In this document: piece by piece, positions 51,069-58,296 of the stretch
How the letters are laid out: each line of letters starts with the position of its first letter
Position numbering within the stretch: position 1 is the first letter of the stretch
Source: Candidatus Tumulicola sp.
Lineage (GTDB): Bacteria; Vulcanimicrobiota; Vulcanimicrobiia; Vulcanimicrobiales; Vulcanimicrobiaceae
Reading direction: 5' to 3'
Assembly: GCA_036490475.1 (NCBI GenBank)
Contig: DASXDT010000006.1
Span: 1,550,001-1,614,000, forward strand
DNA length: 64,000 bases
The notes under the pieces: generated by a model
Databases searched by the model: none
What the model saw: the letters and a program-made list of their open reading frames with translations, nothing else
What the model was told of the DNA's origin: nothing
Program-made: the position numbers and the translations under genes

Positions 51069-51482
51069 CTACAACTGCTTGGCGTAAAATATTTCCGGGT
51101 CGCCGGCGTCGAGATCGTCGAGACGCCCGACGCGCGCAAAACCGAGACCTTCGAGCACGCTTTGCATCGCGCCATTCGACTCATTGGTCGACGTGTGTAG
51201 GCGATGGCCGGTGTTGAGTTGTTCGACGCGCTCGATCAACGCCGACGCGACCCCGTGATGGCGATAGTCCGGCGACACGCCGAGCATCCATAGAAACGGT
51301 CGCGCGTAAAATCCGCGGTCCCACACCACGTAACCGGCGACGCCGCCGTCGATATCGGCGACGAGACATTCCTTGGTGCCCAGCGCATGGCGAATGAACG
51401 TGCTTGGATGTTCGTAGTGAAGGGCGTGCGGCAGGCTCGCCAGGAGCGGTAACTCTTCCGATTTGGCGGTGCGAAGATGCAT
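51069..51482 (-). CDS. GNAT family acetyltransferase
   Basis: A 137-residue N-acetyltransferase: YVVWDRGFYARPFLWMLGVSPDYRHHGVASALIERVEQLN (acetyl-CoA loop with R-x-x-G-x-A) and the C-terminal TSTNESNGAMQSVLEGLGFARVGRLDDLDAGDPEIFYAKQL. It ends 7 bases from the convergent panE stop. Its 5' side faces the haem-barrel operon 93 bases away, so the DtxR-like sites at 51536-51562 lie in the shared upstream region. Confidence 0.88.
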   Translation of the reverse strand: MHLRTAKSEELPLLASLPHALHYEHPSTFIRHALGTKECLVADIDGGVAGYVVWDRGFYARPFLWMLGVSPDYRHHGVASALIERVEQLNTGHRLHTSTNESNGAMQSVLEGLGFARVGRLDDLDAGDPEIFYAKQL

Positions 51483-51562: not shown

Positions 51563-51575
51563 ATCGGAGGTAACG

Positions 51576-52694
51576 GTGCGGATCTGGCTACTGGCGCTGG
51601 CCTTGGGGGCTGCGTGGTTCGTGAGTAACACTGGGCGGGGGCAGGCGCTCCCGATTTTTGCCCACCGGTACGGCTTTTCGTGCCAGCAATGCCACACCAC
51701 CATTCCGCAGCTGAATGCGTTCGGTAAGTATTTCCAGAGCCACGGTTTCCGGTTGCCTGGGGGGCGCGGCGTCGTGCCGGTCGCGGTGAAAACCGAGCTG
51801 CAATACAACAGCGCCGGAGGTGGAGATAGCGACGACCCGGGCGGCGCCCCACAACCGCTGCCAAAATTCATCGTCAACGAAATCGAAGTGCTGTCGGGCG
51901 GTTCTATCGGCAACAACACGTCGTATTGGCTCGAGCAGTATCTGGTCGACGACGGCTTGCCGGGCCAGCCACGCGATATGTGGGTGAACTTCGACCAGTA
52001 CGACAAGGCGCGCGATCCGATCGGGCCGACGTTTCACGCCAAGATTGGACAGTTCACGCTGCCGTTGCCGGTCGATCCCGAAACGCAACGGCCTACGCTC
52101 TCCGGCTATCTGCTCTATAGCCAGACGGTTGCGAGCAATCCGTTCAACTTTTTCGATCCCGATATCGGCGCAGATTTCTCATTCACCGACGATCGTCACG
52201 GCTTTGAAGCGCATTTCGATACCCTCGAAGCCTACACGCGCAGCAGCGGCATTCCGATATCGGGCATCGATTTGATGGGCACCGTGTCGCAAAATATCGG
52301 CCGCAATTTTACGGCGTACTTGTACCGCTATCAAGGCCAGCAACACCTCGAACCGATCGAAGATAATTTTTACCGGCAAGCGTATGGGCTCGGCTTTCAG
52401 GAAGGCAAATTCGGCGCCGTCGGGATCATTCAGAACGGCTACGACACGAGCGCCTACGGTTTCGGTAACGGCGCCCGATCCTCGGGCGGCTTTCTGCAAA
52501 CGTCGTATGCGTTCAACAGCGCCGTTGCGCTCTATGCGCGGTACGACAGCGTGTACGATCCGTTCAACCTACGCGTTAATCAAGGCACGCTGTCGCTCGT
52601 TTTGCGGCCCGCCAGCCACTACCGGTTTACCCTCGAAGGCACCAAGTCGCAAGGCAACTATCAGCTCGGCACCGGGTTGATGTTTGCCTATTAA
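51576..52694 (+). CDS. Outer-membrane barrel protein with one c-type haem motif
   Basis: A 372-residue exported protein. Signal peptide RIWLLALALGAAWFVSNTGRGQA is followed by a single CXXCH (C36, C39, H40 in YGFSCQQCHTTIPQLN), then ~320 residues of alternating beta strands with aromatic girdles (NNTSYWLEQYLVDD; HAKIGQFTLPLP; RNFTAYLYRYQGQQHLE; GAVGIIQNGYDTSAYG; HYRFTLEGTKSQGNYQLGTGLMFAY). This looks like a porin-type barrel with a covalent haem on its N-terminus, possibly at the periplasmic mouth. GTG 51576 has GGAGG five bases before it. It is followed by the multicopper oxidase 12 bases later. Confidence 0.75.
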   Translation: MRIWLLALALGAAWFVSNTGRGQALPIFAHRYGFSCQQCHTTIPQLNAFGKYFQSHGFRLPGGRGVVPVAVKTELQYNSAGGGDSDDPGGAPQPLPKFIVNEIEVLSGGSIGNNTSYWLEQYLVDDGLPGQPRDMWVNFDQYDKARDPIGPTFHAKIGQFTLPLPVDPETQRPTLSGYLLYSQTVASNPFNFFDPDIGADFSFTDDRHGFEAHFDTLEAYTRSSGIPISGIDLMGTVSQNIGRNFTAYLYRYQGQQHLEPIEDNFYRQAYGLGFQEGKFGAVGIIQNGYDTSAYGFGNGARSSGGFLQTSYAFNSAVALYARYDSVYDPFNLRVNQGTLSLVLRPASHYRFTLEGTKSQGNYQLGTGLMFAY

Positions 52695-52706
52695 GAGATC
52701 GTCGAT

Positions 52707-54245
52707 ATGTTAAAGCGTTGGTTGGGTTGTTCGATCGCACTTGCGATCCTCGCCGGCTGTGGCGGCGGTGGCGGCGCCGGAGGAGGCGTGGTTCCGCAAA
52801 CCACTTCGACCTCGGCCCCGACATCGTCCGGACCGTTGCCCGAACCTCCGCAAGTGTTTGCCAAACACGGCGTCGCAACGGTATCGCTGACGGCACAAAT
52901 CGACGCGGCGACCGGCTTTCCGGAGTTCGTTTGGAAAGGCCAAAAAGGCATCATGCCGACGATCCGCGTGAAGCCCGGCGAGACGATCGTGGTCGATGTT
53001 GCCAACGAACTGCCGGCGGCCGGCGGCCGCGCCAGCGACATGAATCTGCATTTTCACGGTCTGACGGTATCTCCGAAGGCGCCGGCCGACGACGTGATCA
53101 CGATGTTGGCAATGCCGGGCGGAACGCTGCATTACGTCGTTCCGGTCCCGAGCAATCAAGAGCCGGGATTGTACTGGTATCATCCGCACGTCTTCCCGCA
53201 AACCGACTACCAAGTTGGCCAGGCAGGCATGTCTGGTGCGATCGTGATCGATGGTTTGCAAGATCACTTGCCGGGGTTGGCATCGATGAAAGAGCGGCTG
53301 ATCATCGTTCGCGACACCGACATCAGCGTCGCCCAGCAGAACCTGCGCGTTCGTCACAACGACGAAGACAGCAACGGCAACCCGTGCGGGCCCGATCCCG
53401 GATTGCAACCGTCCCTCAACGGCGCGGTGCGTCCGACGATCGCTATCCAGCCCGGCGAACGTCAATTTTTCCGCGTCATCAACGCGACCGGACATAAGAA
53501 TCTCAAGCTCGCGGTCGACGGCGGAACGCTCGACGTGGTTGCGGTCGACGGCTACGCGCTCGACGTTAATCCCGGAACTCCGCCGACCGAAACGATGCCG
53601 AGTTTGGTCGTTCCGCCGGCTGCGCGCGCCGAGTTCGTCGTTACCGGGTCTGCAAGTGGAACGTCGGAGTTTCGCACGCTATGCTATAACTCGGGTCCAA
53701 CGGGCGATCCGGATCCGATGAACGTGCTCGCCGATTTGCGATCGAAGGGAGCGGGCCAGTCGGCGCGCTTCGCGCGCTCGACCGGACCGCTTAGCGTCGG
53801 CGCGCAACTGCCGCATAACGCGTTCTCCGGGCCGATGCCGGCGTATTCGCAAGAACGAAAAGTCGTGTTGAGTGAAGACAACAACGGCATGTACATCAAC
53901 GGCAAGCAGTTCAATATGGGCGATGGGCCGATGTTCACCGTGCATACCGGCACGGTCGAGAAGTGGAACGTCGTCAACGTCACCGAGGAAGTGCACGACT
54001 TCCACATCCATCAGGTGCATTTCTTGGTGGTGCAGATCAACGGAGCTACCGTACAGCATCCGATTTGGCAAGATAGCGCGGTCGTGCCGCATCGCATTCC
54101 CGGCGTCAACGGTTCGTGGAAACCCGGCTATCTCACGATGCTGGTCGATTTTCGCGATCCGATCATCGCCGGTACGTTTATGTTCCATTGCCACATCCTC
54201 GATCATGAGGACTCCGGCATGATGGCCAAGATCACTGCGATCTAG
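52707..54245 (+). CDS. Lipoprotein multicopper oxidase
   Basis: A 512-residue three-domain cupredoxin oxidase anchored by a lipobox (LAILAGC|G) and a Gly-rich linker. Copper motifs: HFHG (H115, H117), WYHPH (H159, H161), HDFHIHQVHF (near residues 431-440) and HCHILDHEDSGM (H494, C495, H496, H500 and axial M505), i.e. complete type 1 and trinuclear sites. It oxidises a substrate by one electron at a time and reduces O2 to water; laccase, cuprous, ferrous or manganous oxidase activity is possible. Operon partner of the haem-barrel protein. The 3' hairpin at 54264-54282 may terminate it. Confidence 0.93.
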   Translation: MLKRWLGCSIALAILAGCGGGGGAGGGVVPQTTSTSAPTSSGPLPEPPQVFAKHGVATVSLTAQIDAATGFPEFVWKGQKGIMPTIRVKPGETIVVDVANELPAAGGRASDMNLHFHGLTVSPKAPADDVITMLAMPGGTLHYVVPVPSNQEPGLYWYHPHVFPQTDYQVGQAGMSGAIVIDGLQDHLPGLASMKERLIIVRDTDISVAQQNLRVRHNDEDSNGNPCGPDPGLQPSLNGAVRPTIAIQPGERQFFRVINATGHKNLKLAVDGGTLDVVAVDGYALDVNPGTPPTETMPSLVVPPAARAEFVVTGSASGTSEFRTLCYNSGPTGDPDPMNVLADLRSKGAGQSARFARSTGPLSVGAQLPHNAFSGPMPAYSQERKVVLSEDNNGMYINGKQFNMGDGPMFTVHTGTVEKWNVVNVTEEVHDFHIHQVHFLVVQINGATVQHPIWQDSAVVPHRIPGVNGSWKPGYLTMLVDFRDPIIAGTFMFHCHILDHEDSGMMAKITAI

Positions 54246-54263
54246 GCGAACAACAATCCGTGG

Positions 54264-54282
54264 CGGCTCCTACGCGGAGCCG
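54264..54282 (+). terminator. Hairpin after the multicopper oxidase gene
   Basis: CGGCTCC and GGAGCCG form a perfect 7-bp stem around a TACGC loop, 18 bases past the stop. No T-run follows, so the terminator strength is unsure. The rest of the gap to 54414 contains GC-rich sequence without a gene that I can support. Confidence 0.5.
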
Positions 54283-54414
54283 TCACGGAACCGCGGCGGC
54301 TCCGGATTGGGGCGGGGCCGTCGCGGACCCTTATTATTTACGAGCCCGCCGCACTTTTGGCCCCTTGAGTTCTTCTTAGGATTAGCGCGGGCGCGGCGCG
54401 GGCAAAGGAGCGGA

Positions 54415-54681
54415 ATGGCAAGCAAACATCGGTACACGGCCAAAGAGCACCGGCAAGTCGAGCACATCGAAAAGAGCGAGGAAGTTCGCGGGCATTCGGC
54501 GACCGAAGCCACAGCAATCGGTTACGCGACCGTCAACAAACGGAATCCCGACGATCACCGTTACACGGCGAAAGAAAAACGCCAAGCCGAGCACATCATC
54601 GATTCGGAAGAAAAGGCCGGTAAGTCCGAGACCGAGGCGAAAAGCATCGCCTATGCGACGGTCAACGCCCGCTCGAAATAG
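54415..54681 (+). CDS. Small two-repeat protein, stress/plasmid-stabilisation-like motif
   Basis: An 88-residue, highly charged cytosolic protein of two near-copies of one ~43-residue unit: HRYTAKEHRQVEHIEKSEE...GHSATEATAIGYATVNKR and HRYTAKEKRQAEHIIDSEE...GKSETEAKSIAYATVNAR. The unit (KE-x-RQ-x-EHI...SE-x-x-G-x-S-x-x-x-A-x-x-I-A-x-x-TVN-x-R) resembles short soil-bacterial proteins, often single-repeat and labelled 'plasmid stabilization protein', of unknown activity. AAAGGAG lies just before the ATG at 54415; the open frame back to 54307 is not used. It ends 19 bases into the 3' end of the convergent gene. Confidence 0.7.
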   Translation: MASKHRYTAKEHRQVEHIEKSEEVRGHSATEATAIGYATVNKRNPDDHRYTAKEKRQAEHIIDSEEKAGKSETEAKSIAYATVNARSK

Positions 54682-55597
54682 CGCTCCGTTTCGGGCGGTC
54701 GAAGTACCAGTCTAATACGCGTATCGCGCGTAACGTATTCCAGCGGCTGGCGCGGCCGGTTTCGGGTTCGATCGGAAATCCTAGCCGGTCCGAATGGACG
54801 CGATTCATCGGCCAACGGCTATTTTGATGGCGGCGCGCTTGCACGATTTCGATCGCTTCGCTCGCGCGCGCGTCGGGTTTTGCGCCGGCACTTCGAAGGT
54901 AATCGAGCCCGCGCAAAATATCGTAATGCCACGTCGTCGGATACGCGAAGCGCGTCCAGCGTTGGTCGATTTCTGCGCCGTCGCTCAGCCGGCGGAACAT
55001 CCGCCGTTCGAGCAGATATTCTTGGCCTCTCAACCGCGCTGCGGCGACCGTTTCGTCGTGCCCCCAGCGGCGCTCGTATTCGTTCAATCCTTCGAGAACG
55101 CGAATCGTCGAGTTGAACGACGAACGCACGCTGGCCGGTGCTTCGCAGTTCCATCCGTCGGCAAGCTGTTCGCTCAACAAGCGCTCGACGATCGCGTCGC
55201 AACGCTCGCCGAAGTAGCTGCCGAAAGCCAGGATGGCGCCGTTGATGCACGCTTCGGTTTCGCCCTCGAAGTACGGCCGGCCGTCGAGCGCTTCCCAATG
55301 TAAGCTTTGCCGGACACGCGCGATCGCGTTTTGCGCTTGCGGGCTTTTCGGGTCGAGCCCCATTTCACGCAAGAGCGCCAGCGCGTCCATCGAGATCATC
55401 CATCCGTCGTCGGGCTCGGCCCAGGCGCCGTTCGGCATTTGCCGGTCGAGCAGCGCTTTGCCCCAGCCTTCGGTGGCGACGCGCGAGCGTTCGGCGGCTA
55501 CGGCTTGGGCCGCCGCATCGGTTAAGTCGTTCAAGGCGTGCCAGCGAATCGCCGGATCGCCCTCTATCAACCAGCGAAGAATGCTTGCGTCACTCAC
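54662..55597 (-). CDS. Prenyltransferase/squalene-cyclase-like alpha-toroid protein
   Basis: A 311-residue protein of helical pairs: ILRWLIEGDPAIRWHALNDL, GKALLDRQMPNGAWAEPDDGWMISMDALALLREMGLD, LSEQLADGWNCEAPASVRSSFNSTIRVLEGLNEYERRWG, FAYPTTWHYDILRGLDYLRSAG, EAIEIVQARRHQNSRWPMN. The repeated Q-x-P-N-G-x-W/Q-L-x-D-G-W blocks are like the QW motifs of alpha/alpha-toroid enzymes, but the catalytic D-x-D-D of cyclases is not evident, so enzymatic activity is uncertain. ATG 55597; ends over the two-repeat gene. Divergent from a small membrane protein. Confidence 0.65.
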   Translation of the reverse strand: MSDASILRWLIEGDPAIRWHALNDLTDAAAQAVAAERSRVATEGWGKALLDRQMPNGAWAEPDDGWMISMDALALLREMGLDPKSPQAQNAIARVRQSLHWEALDGRPYFEGETEACINGAILAFGSYFGERCDAIVERLLSEQLADGWNCEAPASVRSSFNSTIRVLEGLNEYERRWGHDETVAAARLRGQEYLLERRMFRRLSDGAEIDQRWTRFAYPTTWHYDILRGLDYLRSAGAKPDARASEAIEIVQARRHQNSRWPMNRVHSDRLGFPIEPETGRASRWNTLRAIRVLDWYFDRPKRSAISSGR

Positions 55598-57237: not shown

Positions 57238-58296
57238 TTAGGGTGGGCTTACGACTTGGCCGTATGGGGCCTTGGGCGCGATCGACGGATCGATCGAGCG
57301 TGTCGGGTTTCCGCCCTTGGTATAGCTGAAGTAGTTCTCGCGGTTAGGACAATTCAAATTCCCGGCGACGACGACGTTTTGCTTGTCGCCCACACCGGTG
57401 ACGAAGGGTTGTATCGCGACCATCCAATTGTGATAGGGATAACACGTGTCGGTAAGGTCGGTCTTGCGGACGATCCGTACTTCTCCGCCCGAAACGGTGA
57501 TGCGATAGATCATCGTCGTGTAGTTGAACTGGTAGTTTTGATCGGTCGCGGTGAGATATTTTCCGTCCCATCCGACGCTGCCGGGAAATCCGACCGCTAG
57601 TCCGTTCAACGGTTTGAATTTCTTCTTGCCGGCAGGCAGTTCCAGAAAACTCGGTACACCCGAATAATCGGTGCCTTGCACGAAGAGATTTCCGGATGGG
57701 TCGTAACCGGGCGGAAACGCCCGGTACAGAGCGGGGTCTTCGTAGTTGGCTTGCTTTCCGGTCAATCCGCCGGATGCGATGACGAGACCGCCGCCGCCAC
57801 TCGCGAAATTAGCGAAGTTTGCGATGGCCATGTCGCCATTTTTCGGGTTGACCGAACATCCCGTGGGAAAACCGAAATTGTCGGTCACCGTCGCGACCGG
57901 CGTGGTGCCGCCATGCGCGAATTCGTAGATCCTTCCGGTGTCATTGTCGACGACGTAAATGTTGCCGCCGCTATCGACGCACTGCCCGTACGGAAAAGTC
58001 AGACCGGTAATCTGACCGTACAGTTTGCCGGCTTTCGAACGGTAATCGTACACATCGACGGTTCCGGAGGCGCCGTCCGAAACGTACAGCAGCCATTGCT
58101 TCTTCGCATCCGGCAGCATCCAGGACGCCCTGCGGTTGAAATGGCGCACCGGCACCAGCCCCAAGCTGTTCGTCCCGGCGATTCGCTGGTCGAGCGCTGA
58201 CGACGTGGCCGGCGGCGTGCCACCGGAACAGCCGCCGGCGAGAACCGCCGCGGCGAGCAAACCGAGGAAATGTCTTGCGCGGACCCTGTACGACAT
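57238..58296 (-). CDS. Beta-propeller (NHL-like) lipoprotein
   Basis: A 352-residue lipoprotein: lipobox AVLAGGC|S, Thr/Ser/Pro linker, then blades such as LLYVSDGASGTVDVYDYRS, FPYGQCVDSGGNIYVVDNDTGRIYEF, PTGCSVNPKNGDMAIANF and FPGSVGWDGKYLTATDQNYQF. The D-x-x-G-x-x-[YF]-V/A repeats mark NHL/YWTD-type propellers. FPGSVGWDGKYLT is nearly the same as FPGSVQWDGKYLT in the 61251 protein, showing a shared family. Envelope location, ligand unknown. Confidence 0.85.
   Translation of the reverse strand: MSYRVRARHFLGLLAAAVLAGGCSGGTPPATSSALDQRIAGTNSLGLVPVRHFNRRASWMLPDAKKQWLLYVSDGASGTVDVYDYRSKAGKLYGQITGLTFPYGQCVDSGGNIYVVDNDTGRIYEFAHGGTTPVATVTDNFGFPTGCSVNPKNGDMAIANFANFASGGGGLVIASGGLTGKQANYEDPALYRAFPPGYDPSGNLFVQGTDYSGVPSFLELPAGKKKFKPLNGLAVGFPGSVGWDGKYLTATDQNYQFNYTTMIYRITVSGGEVRIVRKTDLTDTCYPYHNWMVAIQPFVTGVGDKQNVVVAGNLNCPNRENYFSYTKGGNPTRSIDPSIAPKAPYGQVVSPP

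Follow-up and report, generated by a model that had tools for sequence, protein, structure and literature searches.

The closest described relatives of the system reported here are the Cyc2 proteins, monohaem fusions of cytochrome and porin in iron oxidisers, which are known from Acidithiobacillus, the Zetaproteobacteria and the Gallionellaceae (PMC8406198). According to Keffer et al. (2021), a Cyc2 protein has a signal peptide, one CXXCH preceded by the motif AXPXFAR[Q/K][T/Y] and followed four residues later by PXL, a 16-strand porin for which OprO/OprP (4RJW, 2O4V) were the modelling templates, and a length of at least 365 aa (PMC8406198). Three Cyc2-type proteins have been shown biochemically to be iron oxidases acting on Fe(II), the haem potential of one Cyc2 is 208 mV, and the haem is believed to sit as a plug in the periplasmic opening of the barrel (PMC8406198). 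Similarity among Cyc2 homologues generally lies mostly in the haem domain (PMC5566968). In the rus operon of Acidithiobacillus, copper proteins are also found near cyc2 (PMC10654088).

An outer-membrane barrel and a multicopper oxidase (MCO) encoded side by side are also found in the copper-resistance systems PcoA-PcoB/CopA-CopB (PMC5566968). For iron oxidisers, a "Porin-periplasmic MCO?" conduit has been discussed and answered only with PcoAB (PMC5566968), and papers covering both Cyc2 and MCOs treat them, in the parts consulted, as separate systems. A Cyc2-like gene was reported earlier in Eremiobacterota MAG 15 from acid mine drainage (PMC8357290); the phylum is the same as here, but that gene was a single one identified by BLAST, with no operon or MCO partner mentioned. 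Our literature search, whose coverage left out most subscription journals, revealed no published Cyc2-MCO operon, no paper combining Eremiobacterota with MCOs, and none linking YceI with Cyc2.

The window (the whole stretch of DNA that was analyzed, 64,000 nucleotides from Candidatus Tumulicola sp., a bacterium of the uncultured phylum Eremiobacterota) contains a barrel gene and an MCO gene in tandem (Table 1). The sequence and the list of open reading frames place both on the + strand, with an intergenic gap of exactly 12 bases. The original prediction described an exported protein with one N-terminal CXXCH, followed 12 bases downstream by a complete MCO with a lipobox, and both parts of this description hold: the 372-aa ORF has a signal peptide together with C36, C39 and H40, and the second ORF has the LAGC lipobox, three Pfam domains and all copper ligands. 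The pair is flanked upstream by a GNAT acetyltransferase gene on the opposite strand (51069-51482) and downstream by a short two-repeat ORF (54307-54681) and then a gene on the - strand (54662-55597), none of which joins it. The short ORF just 3' of the MCO gene encodes two near-identical HRYTAKE...EHI repeats and is without a Pfam match. Promoter and terminator scans gave no signal above chance. The inverted repeat downstream of the MCO gene, which is not followed by a T run and was not flagged by the terminator scan, might possibly mark a transcript end.

Table 1. Features of the barrel-MCO gene pair (coordinates of the window)
Feature	Position	Strand	Remarks and basis
Shine-Dalgarno-like GGAGG	51566..51570	+	5 bases ahead of the barrel gene's GTG start; read from sequence
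Cyc2-like fused monohaem cytochrome-porin gene, 372 aa	51576..52694	+	GTG start; ORF, AlphaFold, structural and profile matches
ALPIFAHRY, residues 24-32, counterpart of Cyc2 motif AXPXFAR[Q/K][T/Y]	51645..51671	+	alignment
Haem-binding CQQCH, residues 36-40	51681..51695	+	sequence; C36, C39 and H40 invariant in 31 relatives
PQL, residues 44-46, PXL motif four residues past CXXCH	51705..51713	+	P44 and L46 invariant in 31 relatives
Lipoprotein three-domain MCO gene, laccase/CueO type, 512 aa	52707..54245	+	ATG start; Pfam domains, best PDB match
Lipobox LAGC, lipidated Cys18, then glycine-rich tether	52749..52760	+	sequence
Four copper-ligand motifs: H115/H117, H159/H161, H430/H433/H435, H494-C495-H496...H500...M505	53049..54221	+	sequence
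Inverted repeat GTGGCGGCTCC-tacgc-GGAGCCGTCAC	54260..54286	+	directly 3' of the MCO stop; read from sequence

The first protein of the pair has a signal peptide and ALPIFAHRYGFSCQQCHTTIPQLNAFG at its start, has C36-Q-Q-C39-H40 as its only CXXCH, and ends in FAY, with an aromatic last residue. Its barrel nature was a guess in the original prediction, and structure prediction now supports it: the AlphaFold model built from the window protein and 30 relatives has 16 strands (mean pLDDT 79.3, pTM 0.77), as has a second model, for which the lead sequence was a relative belonging to the MCO-linked clade. The barrel strands are well determined, and the haem domain is the weakest part of the model (pLDDT <50 for residues 19-46). 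The top VIA-align matches were OprO (4rjw, Z 25.6), its mutant and OprP (2o4v, Z 25.1), followed by general porins with Z scores of 22-24; values no more than 1 apart are ties, and a common fold of this kind says nothing on function. No family was matched in Pfam (E up to 1) or NCBIfam, and a sequence search of the PDB gave a chance-level match only. A search of the haem region of 31 relatives for a conserved distal haem ligand revealed no invariant His or Met besides H40; H30 is not conserved.

These features bring the protein close to Cyc2. It has in common with Cyc2 the signal peptide, the single N-terminal CXXCH with PXL four residues later, the length (372 aa against the minimum of 365), the predicted 16-strand porin with OprO/OprP as the nearest solved folds, and the profile similarity of the haem domain. 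It differs in that the barrel part is shorter, in that the neighbouring gene encodes an MCO instead of a cytochrome c or the components of a rus operon, and in that the strict motif fails at two positions (H replaces R, and R replaces Q/K, with A, P, F, A and Y in agreement). The motif is graded, because some relatives (L052, L068) match it exactly and two proteobacterial Cyc2-like homologues also depart from it (FAAQT, FNRQT).

A plasmid search with the barrel gave only three weak matches, all in the haem domain, and these served as the starting point for a set of Cyc2-like proteins for comparison, identified from motif and context and not from biochemistry, which came from named plasmids of Methylocystis, Caballeronia, Paraburkholderia, Ideonella, Polymorphobacter, Acidithiobacillus ferrooxidans and Acidiphilium. 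Six of these proteins were aligned. The resulting HMM scored the window barrel at E 4e-11 (Z = 100000), and hhalign of the window family against the proteobacterial profile gave a probability of 98.5% and E 2.3e-15; the similarity is concentrated in the haem domain. On the basis of these profiles and the predicted fold, we assign the barrel to a divergent Eremiobacterota branch of Cyc2, and we call it Cyc2-like rather than Cyc2 because of the two motif positions. The original prediction had described the pairing as unfamiliar. This applies to the combination with an MCO, for which no published counterpart was found, but not to the barrel, which belongs to a recognisable known type.

The second protein is, as judged from its sequence, a laccase-type three-domain enzyme with all copper ligands. 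PF07732, PF00394 and PF07731 are all above the Pfam cut-offs, the ten His, the type 1 Cys495 and Met505 are complete, and the best PDB sequence match is a Thermus laccase (E 8e-38). Three cupredoxin domains, the full ligand set and the axial Met are common to this protein and to bacterial three-domain MCOs such as the Thermus thermophilus laccase (2xu9 and 6wcn, the best sequence matches in the PDB), whereas the lipid anchor and the pairing with a haem porin set it apart from them. As position +2 after Cys18 is Gly and not Asp, sorting of the lipoprotein to the outer membrane is to be expected. In the MCO tree, the enzyme is sister to a paralogue of its own genome, within a large clade with quite different gene neighbours, and the other barrel-linked MCOs form or adjoin a separate clade. 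The genes of the nearest MCOs (L188, L189, L192, L195 and others) adjoin either a gene for a radical SAM protein with DUF3463 (PF04055/PF11946) or genes for NHL-type propeller proteins related to that encoded at 57238-58296 of the window, and not barrel genes.

Copper-resistance operons have the same arrangement of an outer-membrane barrel and an MCO, which raises the possibility of a PcoA-PcoB/CopA-CopB-like resistance system against copper (or iron). In such a system, the MCO alone would oxidise periplasmic Cu(I) or Fe(II), the barrel would let the metal in or out, and the haem would be only a redox tap or sensor that does not feed the MCO. The best-scoring named families of the MCO are CueO and copper_res_A (CopA/PcoA), and the copper chaperone SCO1 is encoded beside the barrel-MCO pairs of relatives. 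However, the MCO scores against these families, 106 bits for CueO (cut-off 525) and 55 bits for copper_res_A (cut-off 479), are far below the curated NCBIfam cut-offs, which led us to reject the enzyme as an equivalog of either, and the window MCO further differs from CopA in being a lipoprotein. The barrel could likewise be rejected as PcoB/CopB: it has no Pfam match or similarity to PcoB, it has 16 predicted strands against the 10-12 stated for PcoB (PMC5566968), and it carries an invariant c-type haem site that PcoB lacks. We therefore regard a resistance system of this type as rather unlikely.

Linkage of the two genes in relatives had been named in the original prediction as a check, and it was found in some of them. 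Barrel homologues (E <1e-3) are present in 98 of the 103 genomes of the order, and full-length close relatives reach class level. Named loci are nearly all from Candidatus Eremiobacterota MAGs of peat, permafrost and soil, a near-restriction that is of little informative value for distant phyla, as the named-genome contigs were scanned with peptide patterns of the window subfamily. The window family comprises 46 loci, and an MCO gene is linked to the barrel gene in six of them, from five genomes (the window, G007, G097, G063 twice, and G049). The gene order is barrel-MCO-SCO1 in G007, G097 and G063, SCO1 being a copper-assembly protein, and barrel-YceI-MCO in G049. A YceI gene (PF04264), whose product we take to be a periplasmic lipid or quinone binder, lies directly downstream in approx. 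28 of the 46 loci, one of which also has the MCO; 13 loci have neither neighbour. Examples of YceI-like genes directly 3' of window-type barrels are L051 2262-2822, L055 7022-7531 and L062 8469-9011, with about 25 more. The linkage of barrel and MCO is thus real but sporadic.

In the maximum-likelihood barrel tree, the MCO-linked proteins occupy three separate places (the G007/G097/G063 clade, the window, and G049) split by starred branches. A single ancestry of all pairs could be rejected, since in both the barrel and the MCO tree starred branches lie between the window and the clade with the order barrel-MCO-SCO1. From these separate placements of barrel and MCO, the pairing in the window was most likely made independently, and the trees suggest that such pairs formed independently at least twice and probably three times. 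Recurrent pairing with MCOs of separate subfamilies speaks for selection over inheritance of one accident.

The trees also bear on a further explanation, namely that the two genes are chance neighbours with no common function. The genome (3.3 Mb) encodes nine MCO domains, and the barrel-MCO pair of the window is absent from the nearest barrel relatives. Against this stand the common strand, the 12-base gap and the three separate pairings. A rough estimate, which assumes nine MCOs in approx. 3,300 genes (from genome size) and treats loci that are not independent as if they were, gives a probability of about 4e-4 for at least three MCO pairings in 50 loci and about 8e-3 for at least two besides the window. 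Because homologues occur in 98 of the 103 genomes and MCO pairing arises on three barrel branches, we consider the pairing to be beyond chance; tested by the repeated linkage and the trees, mere adjacency is judged unlikely, and we give it very little weight.

Copper proteins are also encoded beside other haem barrels of this group. The genome has a second barrel gene (C6:513050-514003; 33% identity to the window barrel), which belongs to a sister Cyc2-like subfamily. In 24 of the 36 sampled loci of this subfamily, a plastocyanin-like cupredoxin gene (PF00127) lies directly upstream, accompanied in 8 of the 24 by SCO1, and most of the ten cupredoxin ORFs that were read out have a lipobox-like signal. 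The genome itself carries such a cupredoxin-barrel pair (L010 1360-2968; C6, near 513050-514468, - strand). Cupredoxin-linked barrels were also observed in L151, L152, L153, L158, L160, L171, L172, L174, L175, L229-L231, L233-L238, L240, L241 and L246-L248. It looks as if Eremiobacterota generally use a copper protein as electron acceptor for haem porins. Given the rus operon, copper proteins near haem barrels are not without precedent, whereas an MCO in the role of partner has none in the searched literature.

An association of a different kind was found in two genomes of one genus, where a 1100-aa frame (L088 4777-8079, L089 6691-9993) combines a chemoreceptor (CHASE3, HAMP and MCP signalling domains) with a C-terminal Cyc2-like barrel. 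Three further loci (L079, L085 and L086) have a four-base overlap between the barrel gene and a separate cluster-mate gene, which Pfam identifies as an MCP gene in L079 and L086. It would be unusual for a haem porin to form one unit with a chemotaxis receptor.

The copper theme has to be weighed against an ordinary Cyc2-type entry, in which the electrons of the barrel would reach the respiratory chain through soluble c-type cytochromes or cupredoxins, and the MCO would be an unrelated laccase that is merely co-regulated. The named proteobacterial Cyc2-like genes of our comparison set nearly all adjoin c-type cytochrome genes, and the genome encodes soluble c-type cytochromes and four haem-copper oxidase subunits. 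In contrast, no cytochrome c gene adjoins the pair in the window, and the genes that repeatedly adjoin the barrels of Eremiobacterota are those of copper proteins. This explanation appears doubtful to us.

Our preferred reading, to which we give an even chance, is that the barrel and the MCO together relay electrons at the outer membrane as a two-protein system, the two genes probably being co-transcribed as one short unit. A small soluble reductant would enter the Cyc2-like pore from outside and reduce the c-type haem at its periplasmic mouth; Fe(II) is the likeliest candidate, with another metal or a small organic reductant as possible alternatives. The MCO, lipid-anchored beside the barrel with the inner leaflet of the outer membrane as the probable site, would receive the electrons of the haem at its type 1 copper and pass them, four at a time, to O2, with the formation of water. 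The outside reductant would in this way be disposed of, or oxidised for use, without the respiratory chain. CueO, CotA and other three-domain MCOs whose type 1 copper has a Met ligand take up electrons singly and convert O2 to water, working at potentials far higher than 208 mV. The haem potential reported for one Cyc2 (PMC8406198) would thus permit downhill transfer to a type 1 copper of this kind.

Several lines of evidence are consistent with a relay: (i) the likeness of the barrel to Cyc2 in predicted fold, profile and most of the haem-domain motif, (ii) the complete copper ligands and the lipid anchor of the MCO, together with the 12-base gap on the same strand, (iii) the repeated adjacency of barrel and MCO genes, with SCO1 as third gene in the MCO clade and a putative cupredoxin partner in the sister subfamily, and (iv) the presence of a cytochrome c assembly protein in the genome. 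Other observations argue against it. Most barrels of the window family have no MCO neighbour, the MCO lineage of the window elsewhere adjoins quite different genes, and with nine MCO domains in the genome one MCO neighbour is no rare event by itself. Furthermore, the soluble cytochromes c and haem-copper oxidases encoded in the genome could take the electrons instead, and the predicted haem domain is of low model confidence. The original proposal that a haem porin and an envelope oxidase move electrons across the outer membrane, or support metal oxidation outside the cell, is therefore plausible in view of the Cyc2-like barrel and its recurrent copper neighbours, but the linkage is exceptional, and transfer and metal substrate are conjectural.

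More broadly, and tentatively, the pair may represent a minimal oxidase for extracellular donors, in which a haem porin and an outer-membrane MCO would carry electrons from an outside metal or other reductant to O2, bypassing the inner-membrane chain, and which would have been assembled independently several times in Eremiobacterota. The recurrent independent joining of barrel and MCO suggests a small self-contained electron relay that has not been described before. The pair also makes the question of a porin-MCO conduit (raised in PMC5566968) testable with two purified proteins. Cyc2 homologues are employed as markers of microbial iron oxidation, and little is known of the partners that they have outside the Proteobacteria. 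If it is true that the barrels of Eremiobacterota feed copper proteins (MCO or cupredoxin) and not cytochromes, many "Cyc2" calls in soil and peat genomes may mean detoxification or oxidation that yields no energy, as opposed to lithotrophy.
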